A stretch of DNA of 41,728 bases, from positions 1 to 41,728 of the IMG/VR virus record IMGVR_UViG_3300032797_000246. One strand, written 5' to 3'. The stretch comes from a virus. This document shows, in pieces, positions 32,218 through 35,159 of this stretch. Under the pieces are notes generated by a model. That model saw nothing but the letters and a program-made list of their open reading frames with translations, did no database searches and was not told the DNA's origin. Position numbers and translations under genes: made by a program. Numbering within the stretch: the first letter of the stretch is position 1; each line of letters starts with the position of its first letter.

Positions 32218-32618
32218 TTCTTCCCCCACAATACGGTTTTGCCCGTGAACCGCAGGCCCAGCTCTTCGTAGGCCCCCTCATAGAGTGCGGTCGGCTGGCT
32301 TTTGCCGAAAAAGGGGATTACCGGGTGCATGCAGTAATGACGGAAGAACAACTCGACCCCGTGCCAGCCGAGCCCGATTTCCACGCGATAGAAGGCATCG
32401 GTCGGGAACCAATCCCAGCCGGCCCGGGTGCCGAAGGCGTAGGTCCGGACTCCGCCGCCTATATAGAGTAGGTCAAGGATTCCCAACCGGGCATCCAGGT
32501 CTGTATATATAGACCCGGCCAGTTCCTGAGAGATGATGGGGTCTGGCCTATATAGGATCATCGTGCTATTCGGCAGGATGCCTAGCTCCAGGGCGAAAGC
32601 CAGTGCTAACCAGTTCAT
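32214..32618 (-). CDS. 134-aa protein of unknown function, early operon
   Basis: The sequence begins hydrophobic (NWLALAFALELGILP), which could be a signal or anchor. It is then rich in alternating hydrophobic and aromatic strands (SIYTDLDARLGILDLLYIGG; FYRVEIGLGWHGVELFF), like a small beta-barrel. It ends LGLRFTGKTVLWGKK. It is coupled to both neighbours. A membrane-associated beta protein is a guess from pattern; no family recognised. Confidence 0.6.
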   Translation of the reverse strand: MNWLALAFALELGILPNSTMILYRPDPIISQELAGSIYTDLDARLGILDLLYIGGGVRTYAFGTRAGWDWFPTDAFYRVEIGLGWHGVELFFRHYCMHPVIPFFGKSQPTALYEGAYEELGLRFTGKTVLWGKK

Positions 32619-32848
32619 GAAGCACCTCCCATCTTGCCCGCCGCTATATAGGCGAGCAGGTCAACCTTGTAGATCAGCTTTCGCGGGCGTTTGGTCCCAA
32701 CCGGCAGGAATCGTAATTTGCCCGCCCGCAGCAGTCCGTAGACCGTCGTCGGTCCTACCCGTAGCACCTCCGCCACCTCTTCCGGCATCAAGGGATCGGG
32801 CAGTTGATCCAGGGGCCGCGGGATCCGCTCCGCGCGGATGTTAGGCAT
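32615..32848 (-). CDS. Excisionase-like HTH protein (AlpA/HTH_17 type)
   Basis: The 77-aa protein has the winged helix-turn-helix of excisionase-type proteins: MPEEVAEVLRVGPTTVYGLLRAGKLRFLPVG and a basic KRPRKLIYKVDLLAYIAAG. Such proteins direct the integrase towards excision or act as early regulators. It is the second gene of the leftward early operon, overlapping the ribbon-helix-helix gene by 8 nt, and lies about 1 kb from the integrase. An excisionase role is the best guess; regulation of the early genes is the alternative. Confidence 0.78.
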   Translation of the reverse strand: MPNIRAERIPRPLDQLPDPLMPEEVAEVLRVGPTTVYGLLRAGKLRFLPVGTKRPRKLIYKVDLLAYIAAGKMGGAS

Positions 32849-32993
32849 GAGCGGCCTCTTTCATGATCTCTTCGATAATGATGACAATTTGAGTACTCAT
32901 GGAGTGCCGATCCCTTTTCGCGGCTTTCCGAATCTCCTGGTGTATCTCCTTGGGCAGGTATACAGTCACCGCCTTTTTTTGATTATCCTTCAT
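32841..32993 (-). CDS. 50-aa ribbon-helix-helix repressor, first gene of the early operon
   Basis: The whole protein is one ribbon-helix-helix unit: strand AVTVYLPKEI, helix HQEIRKAAKRD, turn HSMS and helix TQIVIIIEEIMKEA. An Arc/CopG-like DNA-binding dimer is expected. The predicted transcription start (about 32995) lies 2-3 nt before the ATG at 32993, so the mRNA may be nearly leaderless. An in-frame ATG at 32999 lies upstream of that start and is unlikely to be used. It probably binds the divergent promoter region. Confidence 0.72.
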   Translation of the reverse strand: MKDNQKKAVTVYLPKEIHQEIRKAAKRDRHSMSTQIVIIIEEIMKEAAHA

Positions 32994-33001
32994 AGTCATG
33001 T

Positions 33002-33030
33002 ACTATAGCGCATCGTGCATGATTTGTCAA
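33002..33030 (-). promoter_or_regulatory. Leftward promoter of the early operon
   Basis: On the minus strand TTGACA (33030-33025), a 17-bp spacer and TATAGT (33007-33002) make a nearly perfect sigma70-type promoter. The expected start point is about 32995, just before the ATG of the 50-aa gene. Confidence 0.8.
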
Positions 33031-33054
33031 CATTTAAGAAAAAATATTTTTTGC

Positions 33055-33083
33055 TTGAGACAATCAGAATAAGGGACTATAAT
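33055..33083 (+). promoter_or_regulatory. Rightward promoter of the regulator-lipoprotein pair
   Basis: TTGAGA (33055-33060), a 17-bp spacer and TATAAT (33078-33083) form a near-consensus sigma70-type promoter. The start point would be about 33090, leaving a leader of about 10 nt that holds the GGAGGAAG ribosome site before the ATG at 33101. Confidence 0.82.
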
Positions 33084-33100
33084 GTACTGCGGAGGAAGAT

Positions 33101-33475
33101 ATGGGCGTTGACAAGAAAAAGATAAAACCGACTACCGTTTACGTTCCTCGCAAAATATTCAAGGAAATAGAACGTTTCCATACGTCCGAAGGGCGCCCTG
33201 ATATGTCGGATTCCAGCATGATCGTCAATCTTCTTCAGCGATGGTATGACGAGCGAATCCTCCCAAAAGACCGCCAGCCAAGCCCCAAAGAGAAGATCGG
33301 CGAAGGCCTGATACGCATCGGAACAATAAAAACTCTTCAGGTCGAAGATATATTGCGGCGACAGACGAACGGGGATAAGCGGCAATTCGGGGAAATCGCC
33401 GTTGCGATGCAGTTCATAGACCAGAAAACTCTTGATGATTATTTAAGTGGAAACCATCCTGGTAGGAGGAAATGA
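33101..33475 (+). CDS. Ribbon-helix-helix protein with a C-terminal MshEN-like double motif
   Basis: In 124 aa there are two parts. Residues 9-54 fit a ribbon-helix-helix: strand PTTVYVPRK, helix IFKEIERFH, helix SSMIVNLLQRWYDE. Residues about 64-119 carry two 24-residue motifs: KIGEGLIRIG plus VEDILRRQ, then QFGEIAVAMQ plus LDDYLSG, separated by about 6 residues. This is the tandem layout of the MshEN domain, known from type II secretion ATPases, some of which bind cyclic di-GMP. Here the second motif has Q instead of the usual G. It is one of only two plus-strand genes, transcribed away from the early operon as a lysogeny regulator would be. Whether it binds a nucleotide is unknown. Confidence 0.75.
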   Translation: MGVDKKKIKPTTVYVPRKIFKEIERFHTSEGRPDMSDSSMIVNLLQRWYDERILPKDRQPSPKEKIGEGLIRIGTIKTLQVEDILRRQTNGDKRQFGEIAVAMQFIDQKTLDDYLSGNHPGRRK

Positions 33476-33476
33476 T

Positions 33477-33929
33477 ATGAAGAAGGCAGTGATCCGTTTT
33501 CTGTTGTTTGCGGTTGCTCTATTGGTGAGTTGTGCAGTTTCATTTAATCTTTCGACTTGTATTTCTACTCCCCCGGCAACCGATACTGATCGGATCAGAG
33601 ACTATAACCAGCCTCTTCAGGCAATATTCGACGCCACCAAGGCTGTCCTCTCGGGTTTCAATGCGGAGATCATTCAGAGTGATAGTGCCGGCGGCATTCT
33701 TGTAGCCCGCCGACACCTGGGCGGCGAAATGGCCACGGCGATCCTGCTCGGTAAGGCGAGCGCTATTTTCAGTACCTACCGACTCAACCTTTTCACCACG
33801 AACGCAGGCACCCGCATTCAACTCCGCATCGTCGCCGCGTATGCCGATGGGTCCCATGAAAGCGAGTTCGCCAAGCCGGGCTATGATGAGTTCTGGGCAA
33901 AACTAGAGAAGGCCCTATCCGGCTTCTGA
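33477..33929 (+). CDS. Small lipoprotein co-transcribed with the regulator
   Basis: I chose MKKAVIRFLL at 33477, 1 nt after the regulator stop and with GGAGGAAA upstream (150 aa). A signal sequence ends in the lipobox LVSC (Cys19), so the mature protein should be lipid-anchored. After a short Ser/Thr/Pro linker there is a compact alpha/beta domain (LQAIFDATKAVLSGFNAEI, GGILVARRHLGG, TRIQLRIVAAYADG, FWAKLEKALSGF). It is expressed with the likely lysogeny regulator, so it may be made by the prophage, for example for superinfection exclusion or host modification. That is inference. Its last 15 bp overlap the end of the integrase gene, which runs the other way. Confidence 0.75.
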   Translation: MKKAVIRFLLFAVALLVSCAVSFNLSTCISTPPATDTDRIRDYNQPLQAIFDATKAVLSGFNAEIIQSDSAGGILVARRHLGGEMATAILLGKASAIFSTYRLNLFTTNAGTRIQLRIVAAYADGSHESEFAKPGYDEFWAKLEKALSGF

Positions 33930-35159
33930 TGCGCCCAGGATGATAAGTCCTTCCGCCAGTTCTCCCACCCGCCTGATCGTCTCTGCCGGCAATTCCGTAT
34001 AGTGCTCGGTCATGGCCTCCGTGGCATGTCCGGTGAGCAGCCGCAGCACGTGGTCTTCCACCTTCCCACGCATCATGCTGTTGTACCAGTGCCGCCAAGC
34101 ATGGAAGGTGAGGTGGCGCCGGCAACGCTCAGTCTCCGGGATACCGGAGGCGGCAAGTACAGTTCTATAGGTACGCGTGATCATCGTGGCAGACACGGGT
34201 CGATCCCGCCGGTATCCCCAGAAAATGAAGGCGTTCCGCCAGGGGTTGGTGGCGCTGAGCTCCTGGAGCATCGCTTCGGTCCGGGCCGGCAGCGGCACGT
34301 CCCGCACGCTTCCCCACTTCGGCAGCTTCAGCCCTTCTGCATTCTGCCAATTGTGGCAGACGTGGATATAGCCGGGCCGGAGGTCCTCGATCTGCAGGCC
34401 GCGGATCTCGCCCAGGCGCATGCCGGTGGTGGCCGCCAGCAGGTTGGCTGCCAGATAGCGCCGGTCAGGACAGGATTGGGCAAAGAAGACACGGACCTCC
34501 TCCAAGGAAAGGATCTCACGCCTGGGTGGTCGATCTGGAAGTGGTTGGATTCGCCGAACCGGGTTGGCCGGCAACAGGCCCAGGCGTTCCGCTTCCCCCA
34601 GGGCCACGCCTATCGCTTTACGGATACTATTAACCCGACTCGCTCCGAGGCCACTATGGCGAAGGTGGGCCAATAGAGCTTCCAGCAATTCCGTTGTCAC
34701 CCGCACCAGAGACAGATTTTCCTTGCCCTGTTCTTTGAGCCAGGGAAGAACATACTGCCGAATGCAATGATAGCTGTTGTGGACATAGGCAACCGAAAGG
34801 GTTTTCTCCTGAGCCACCTGACGTTCGAGGTAGAGAGATCCTGGCGCCCAGAAGGAGGCAAGATAGTCGACTAGCGTTTCGGAACCCCAACGGATGATGC
34901 CCTGTTCCAAGGCCATACGGGCCGCGGCATCCACTTCGGCTTTGCGGGTCGGCGAGAGGTGCCGGGCCCGCTCCCCGAGCTCCCGGATGAGTTTATCAGC
35001 TGAGCGGCGCACCCGGTAAGATCCGTGGTCTTCATCCCAGAATCCGATATGATAGACTCGGGCATCGCCTTGGCCGCGGCGATAGATGATGTAAGACTTC
35101 CTCGTATCCTGGAGTATATCGCAGTTTTTCGCGTGTAACAATCGAAGTAACAAAAGCAC
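33915..35159 (-). CDS. int: Tyrosine recombinase (integrase)
   Basis: The catalytic residues are all visible in the 414-aa frame: Arg248 in TGMRLGEI, Lys281 in LPKWGSVRD, His353 and Arg356 in HAWRH, His378 in LTGHA and the nucleophile Tyr387 in EHYTEL. The middle (about 95-200) is the core-binding domain and the first 60 residues a small beta-rich arm-binding domain. The listed start is GTG at 35159; alternatives a little inside cannot be excluded. It integrates the phage at a host attachment site. A promoter-like TTGTTA-N17-TATACT lies inside its first 20 codons. Confidence 0.92.
   Translation of the reverse strand: MLLLLRLLHAKNCDILQDTRKSYIIYRRGQGDARVYHIGFWDEDHGSYRVRRSADKLIRELGERARHLSPTRKAEVDAAARMALEQGIIRWGSETLVDYLASFWAPGSLYLERQVAQEKTLSVAYVHNSYHCIRQYVLPWLKEQGKENLSLVRVTTELLEALLAHLRHSGLGASRVNSIRKAIGVALGEAERLGLLPANPVRRIQPLPDRPPRREILSLEEVRVFFAQSCPDRRYLAANLLAATTGMRLGEIRGLQIEDLRPGYIHVCHNWQNAEGLKLPKWGSVRDVPLPARTEAMLQELSATNPWRNAFIFWGYRRDRPVSATMITRTYRTVLAASGIPETERCRRHLTFHAWRHWYNSMMRGKVEDHVLRLLTGHATEAMTEHYTELPAETIRRVGELAEGLIILGASEAG

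Follow-up and report, generated by a model that had tools for sequence, protein, structure and literature searches.

A Phage Gene Joining a Probable Ribbon-Helix-Helix to an MshEN-Type Domain: A Candidate c-di-GMP-Responsive Regulator of Lysogeny

Introduction

The MshEN_N domain occurs in Vibrio cholerae MshE (PDB 5htl) and in its relatives PilB, PilF, and NfrB, and comprises two 24-residue motifs. In MshE, the c-di-GMP site is made or shaped by G11, G40, L10, L25, L29, L54, L58, Q32, and Q61, and substitution of G11 or G40 abolishes c-di-GMP binding (PMC5013675). XpsE, in which both motif glycines as well as Leu29, Leu54, and Leu58 are lost, does not bind c-di-GMP (PMC5013675). It was also reported that CdbA and CdbB from Myxococcus xanthus are ribbon-helix-helix (RHH) proteins that bind c-di-GMP, and that DNA and c-di-GMP are mutually exclusive ligands of CdbA (PMC7156744). 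With regard to phages, small RHH regulators of the Arc/Mnt type are found in control regions, and in vibriophage VP882 the frequency of lysogeny changes with the c-di-GMP pool of the host, through an effector called unknown by the authors (PMC11315295).

Here, we describe a phage gene whose product resembles each of these systems in part. The protein shares with MshE the fold, the two 24-residue motifs, the key glycines, Q32, L29, L54, and L58, but it has no ATPase or glycosyltransferase, and its MshEN part is placed behind a probable RHH. Its proposed role resembles that of CdbA and CdbB in pairing RHH DNA binding with c-di-GMP; however, in CdbA, which has no MshEN and is not phage-encoded, the RHH domain itself takes c-di-GMP, whereas the fusion protein has a separate MshEN domain and thus falls outside the CdbA-type RHH receptors. 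Arc/Mnt-type repressors lack an MshEN-type ligand domain, and no phage MshEN protein has been reported for VP882, for which c-di-GMP-dependent lysogeny is known, as proposed here. A full-text literature search (MshEN, ribbon-helix-helix, and c-di-GMP) found no description of an RHH-MshEN fusion, and no phage-encoded MshEN protein was found by title, the matches dealing with the receptor of phage N4 or with pili.

The Fusion Gene and Its Product

The window is the whole stretch of viral DNA analysed (41,728 nucleotides). The features discussed below are as follows, in window coordinates:

32615..32848, minus strand: excisionase-like HTH protein (HTH_17, TIGR01764)
32841..32999, minus strand: small RHH gene, 52 aa, candidate Cro-like partner heading the minus-strand genes (Pfam, PHROG, TIGR04563)
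33002..33030, minus strand: divergent promoter-like site, TTGACA-17-TATAGT, 11/12 (sigma-70 consensus match only)
33055..33083, plus strand: promoter-like site preceding the fusion gene, TTGAGA-17-TATAAT, 11/12 (sigma-70 consensus match only)
33101..33475, plus strand: RHH-MshEN fusion gene, 124 aa (ORF, Shine-Dalgarno, sigma-70-like promoter)
33125..33256, plus strand: probable RHH domain, aa 9-52, with a TTVYVP strand and helices 17-30 and 38-52 (models, shuffle tests, RHH profile)
33293..33364, plus strand: MshEN motif I, aa 65-88, KIGEGLIRIGTIKTLQVEDILRRQ (NCBIfam profile, AlphaFold2, Foldseek, residue alignment)
33383..33454, plus strand: MshEN motif II, aa 95-118, QFGEIAVAMQFIDQKTLDDYLSGN (NCBIfam profile, AlphaFold2, Foldseek, residue alignment)
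33477..33929, plus strand: lipoprotein-like gene with its own Shine-Dalgarno (sequence; LVSC lipobox-like motif)
33915..35159, minus strand: tyrosine integrase (Pfam Phage_integrase, E = 2e-13)

The ORF that a preliminary description of this DNA had placed at 33101-33475 was borne out: it comprises 124 codons beginning with ATG, is preceded by the Shine-Dalgarno GGAGGA at 33091-33096, and encodes MGVDKKKIKPTTVYVPRKIFKEIERFHTSEGRPDMSDSSMIVNLLQRWYDERILPKDRQPSPKEKIGEGLIRIGTIKTLQVEDILRRQTNGDKRQFGEIAVAMQFIDQKTLDDYLSGNHPGRRK. The reading frame contains no plausible internal start just 5' of the MshEN part, which argues against two merged genes. Searches of IMG/VR, GTDB genomes, INPHARED, and PLSDB found no close full-length relatives; phage and plasmid matches at E-values of 6-9 were rejected as chance. 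The pairing of RHH and MshEN had no second homologue in the collections scanned by pattern-based, non-exhaustive scans, and one sequence carries it.

The MshEN-Type Domain

Profile, homologues, and fold together confirm that aa 65-118 form a genuine MshEN-type domain, with the two motifs at the positions originally proposed (aa 65-88 and 95-118). The NCBIfam profile NF053729 (c-di-GMP_motif, MshE-related) describes the c-di-GMP motif of 53 residues, and its positions 1-51 align to aa 65-116 with E = 3.8e-6, at a score (26.6 bits) below the curated cut-off of 38. The preliminary description would have taken the lack of any MshEN profile match as a refutation, and this match below the cut-off removes that objection. 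The remaining two NCBIfam matches, EpsG and PRK15489, fall on these residues as well. Pfam-A and PHROGs gave no match to the MshEN part, and the Pfam MshEN model PF05157 was also silent; this silence is of little weight here, because PF05157 also misses two phage-encoded relatives that do match NF053729. In a phmmer search of PDB with the fusion protein, MshE 5htl already appears (at E = 1.3 only), and with a family profile the sequence matches in PDB included PilB (E = 1.5e-6), MshE 5htl (E = 3e-5), and PilF (E = 6e-5).

An AlphaFold2 model built from 23 sequences has four helices in the MshEN part (66-72, 78-89, 96-102, and 108-116), with pLDDT values of 94-97 over aa 71-110; its pTM of 0.47 makes it unreliable on the orientation of the RHH and MshEN domains. 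The top two Foldseek matches in PDB were both chains of c-di-GMP-bound MshE (5htl), with a probability of 1.00 and an rmsd of 1.0-1.7 A over 55 columns, the E-values being only 0.1-0.2 owing to the shortness of the MshEN domain. PilF with bound c-di-GMP ranked lower (two structures, probability 0.18-0.20), and a viral fold library searched with the model gave nothing useful. The predicted fold of residues 60-124 is thus of the MshEN type suggested earlier, with four helices and with 5htl as the best match.

Conservation of c-di-GMP Contact Residues

In the residue alignment with MshE, K65, I66, G67, G74, V81, L85, and Q88 of motif I correspond to R9, L10, G11, G18, L25, L29, and Q32, while Q95, F96, G97, Q104, L111, L115, and N118 of motif II correspond to R38, L39, G40, G47, L54, L58, and Q61. 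The spacer between the motifs is 6 residues long in the fusion protein versus 5 in MshE. Seven MshE residues are retained (G11, G18, L29, Q32, G40, L54, and L58); four are changed (R9 to K, L10 to I, L25 to V, and L39 to F), and R38, G47, and Q61 are replaced by Q, Q, and N, respectively. By the RLG, G, and LxxxLxxQ positions, the protein belongs to MshEN_N, motif I being complete with conservative changes and motif II partly so.

Among 50 aligned relatives, G11 is conserved in 100%, G40 in 96%, and Q32 in 96%, whereas I stands at the L10 position and F at the L39 position in 98% each; the fusion protein agrees at all of these columns. Most of its contact changes versus MshE are also shared by the spirochaete family described below. 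As judged from this alignment, the fusion protein is typical of its family, in which both essential glycines are preserved. The preliminary description had noted Q in place of G in motif II and suggested that binding may be lost or changed. The substitution is indeed present (Q104, at G47 of MshE), but the argument for lost binding is weak: G47 is a turn residue, about 19% of 49 relatives lack glycine there, and both G11 and G40 are kept.

These residues also bear on the possibility that the MshEN part no longer binds nucleotide and serves as a mere dimer or oligomer interface, in which case the RHH protein would be an ordinary constitutive phage repressor. XpsE is an example of such a loss (PMC5013675), and in motif II the R38 and Q61 contacts have been replaced along with the turn glycine G47. 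However, both glycines and the three leucines (Leu29, Leu54, and Leu58) lost in XpsE are all retained here, and the near invariance of G11, G40, and Q32 across the family points to a conserved pocket, which makes a non-binding domain rather unlikely. We favor the reading in which the fusion protein may bind c-di-GMP or a relative of it.

Stand-Alone MshEN Proteins in Spirochaetes and Phages

A scan of 84,980 species genomes, seeded by a three-sequence alignment (the fusion protein and two relatives from phage record G001), detected 23 loci, 21 of which carry spirochaete names (one labelled Borreliella garinii). Nearly all relatives stand alone and are 57-90 aa long; their consensus reads approximately EKIGEGLVRIGAMTxEQVxxVLxxQKxGDKRLFGEIAxELGYIDxEAIxxYLxxK. 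The nearest ones are Spirochaetales proteins with up to about 55-60% identity across the full MshEN domain, and tblastn of single genomes detected spirochaete relatives at E-values down to 3.6e-17. The fusion protein belongs to this spirochaetal small MshEN family, sharing all of the invariant I, G, Q, F, G, and A columns, the one-residue spacer insertion, and the L10-to-I and L39-to-F changes. In contrast to it, the stand-alone proteins have no DNA-binding part and mostly carry L where the fusion protein has Q95; among the relatives inspected, none has an RHH part in frame.

In one spirochaete order, a small MshEN match was found in 22 of the 26 genomes (up to 8 copies), and GGDEF proteins are encoded in 24. 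Small MshEN genes are missing from four genomes, which include the two GGDEF-free ones, G050 and G051 (hypergeometric p of about 0.018, calculated by hand and ignoring relatedness), a co-absence which hints that the family is tied to c-di-GMP. No name, published function, or report of c-di-GMP binding was found for this family in the literature.

Among 27 phage records with a related integrase or terminase, tblastn detected two MshEN relatives (54% and 45% identical), both in G001, whose host is probably a spirochaete. Its two stand-alone MshEN genes (L064:14539-14892 and L064:15869-16057, both on the minus strand) lie between an integrase and a CI-like repressor, on the same strand as the latter, and one of them continues in frame into a Cys-rich tail. 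In two phage contigs from one metagenome, the genes directly upstream of an MshEN gene (L066:3690-3965 and L064:14894-15157) encode small proteins of about 90 aa that appear related by eye; the MshEN gene at L066:4001-4132 retains a single motif, followed by a basic tail.

The phage contig closest to the window among those found has a terminase identity of 85-86% and does not share the fusion-gene region, and the fusion gene is absent from the phages related by terminase (up to 85% identity). The integrase has a 44% identical relative (E = 1.4e-102) in spirochaete genome G319, with no MshEN gene nearby in the stretch read. The host of the phage is most likely a spirochaete, because the MshEN relatives are spirochaetal; the integrase match agrees.

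Genomic Setting and Divergent Promoters

The 41.7 kb virus record encodes a portal, a ClpP-like protease, a Mu-like major head protein, a terminase, and tail genes, and the minus strand carries nearly all of the window genes. Towards the right end, the leftward genes encode an ERF protein, an HNH/AP2 protein, the excisionase-like HTH, and the small RHH protein. The latter matches Pfam RHH_5 (E = 1.7e-4), Arc (E = 0.008), Arc-like families of PHROG, and TIGR04563 (E = 6.7e-4). Its sole PDB sequence match is the c-di-GMP-binding RHH protein CdbA, which is not significant (E = 1.3).

Two divergent promoter-like sites separate this gene from the fusion gene, where about 1.3 such sites are expected by chance in the 1.2 kb scanned. 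If these promoters are real, both transcripts would begin near a start codon or Shine-Dalgarno (32991-33007 on the minus strand and 33083-33101 on the plus strand) and be near-leaderless; translation of the small RHH protein would in that case begin at the second ATG. An operator search of the 141 bases 32970-33110 detected repeats, both direct and inverted (ATGTACT twice, and an imperfect palindrome over the minus-strand -10), but none exceeds what chance would produce, and the same holds for the operator-like repeats within 33002-33083. Rfam gave no known RNA in the window.

The lipoprotein-like gene starts 1 nt past the stop of the fusion gene, and the two likely form one operon. Its product had no family match in Pfam, PHROG, or NCBIfam, and is a candidate superinfection-exclusion or conversion factor. 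The preliminary description had assigned the fusion gene to a lysogeny-control position, and the setting supports this: divergent promoters flanked on one side by genes for the RHH and the excisionase-like HTH proteins and on the other by the integrase, and, among the proteins of the window that were scanned, none of the CI repressor type.

The same region could instead be an accessory conversion cassette, in which regulator and lipoprotein would retune c-di-GMP-controlled host genes or sequester c-di-GMP rather than act as the switch of the phage. The operon with the lipoprotein gene, the lack of the region in the closest phage contig, and the two stand-alone MshEN genes of G001, which lie among accessory genes and share the strand of the CI-like repressor, all fit such a cassette. 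It is nevertheless unlikely, since a switch better explains the promoter-to-promoter divergence, the position of an RHH gene at the head of the minus-strand genes, and the fact that no other candidate repressor was found. We therefore prefer the reading that the fusion protein is probably a regulator of the lysogeny switch.

The N-Terminal Ribbon-Helix-Helix

The N-terminal part, in which an RHH had also been proposed, has a pattern (KPTTVYVPRKIFKEIERF...SDSSMIVNLLQRWYDER) compatible with strand-helix-helix. The search of RHH families gave no support from libraries: aa 1-63 had no RHH match in Pfam, PHROG, NCBIfam, or any other library profile searched. A single-sequence AlphaFold2 model (pLDDT of about 50) shows a strand at 10-16 and helices at 17-26 and 38-52, and was dropped as a fold-search query because it was too poor. 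The alignment-based model has an extended segment at 10-16 and helices at 17-30 and 38-52, with an N-terminal pLDDT of about 60-73; its alignment excluded the neighbouring RHH protein, which had aligned to the wrong domain, and the N-terminus was thus modelled from one sequence.

Local alignment of the N-terminus with the neighbouring RHH protein scored 50, which was reached by 1 of 5000 shuffles; a two-sequence BLASTP did not report this match. Against an independent profile built from 28 spirochaete RHH_1 domains, the N-terminus gave E = 0.0019 (one sequence), with 6 of 2000 shuffles as good, and the non-NikR subset plus the neighbouring RHH protein gave E = 1.5e-4, with none of 2000 as good. 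The strand and helix pattern and the shuffle scores favour the proposal, although library matches are lacking and N-terminal model confidence is low, and the N-terminus is likely an RHH. That it does not bind DNA and the protein is an adaptor carrying the MshEN signal to another protein, as the missing library match and low model confidence would allow, is very unlikely given the TTVYVP strand, the two helices, and the shuffle results against both the neighbour and the RHH profiles.

Proposed Mechanism and Implications

Host c-di-GMP is high when cells are sessile and low when they are motile. In the mechanism that we propose, the gene product would be a phage transcription regulator whose probable RHH would dimerise and contact DNA between and within the divergent promoters (33002-33083), and whose four-helix MshEN part may derive from the small stand-alone proteins of spirochaete hosts. 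Binding of c-di-GMP or a relative by the MshEN part would alter dimerisation or DNA affinity, so that host c-di-GMP would shift the balance between expression of the plus-strand operon (regulator and lipoprotein) and that of the minus-strand RHH, excisionase, and replication genes, and hence between lysogeny and lytic development. Repressor function and c-di-GMP sensing are putative here, as are the operator site and the direction of the effect. We regard this account of a c-di-GMP-responsive regulator acting on 33002-33083, taken as a whole, as evenly balanced between right and wrong; that a temperate phage carries a one-component c-di-GMP switch (RHH plus host-type MshEN) coupling the lysis-lysogeny decision to the motile or sessile state of its host is a more tentative proposal, and somewhat doubtful.

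The fusion protein is a small phage-encoded candidate for a direct c-di-GMP receptor in the lysogeny decision, and RHH plus MshEN, a pairing seen once in the collections scanned, would make for a simple DNA binder that responds to c-di-GMP as a single component. The protein also points to the widespread small MshEN family of spirochaetes. In two spirochaete MAGs (L079:2529-4004 and L080:2711-4183), a malic-enzyme-like frame runs with no stop into a C-terminal small MshEN (about 490 aa), possibly encoding a c-di-GMP-regulated metabolic enzyme.
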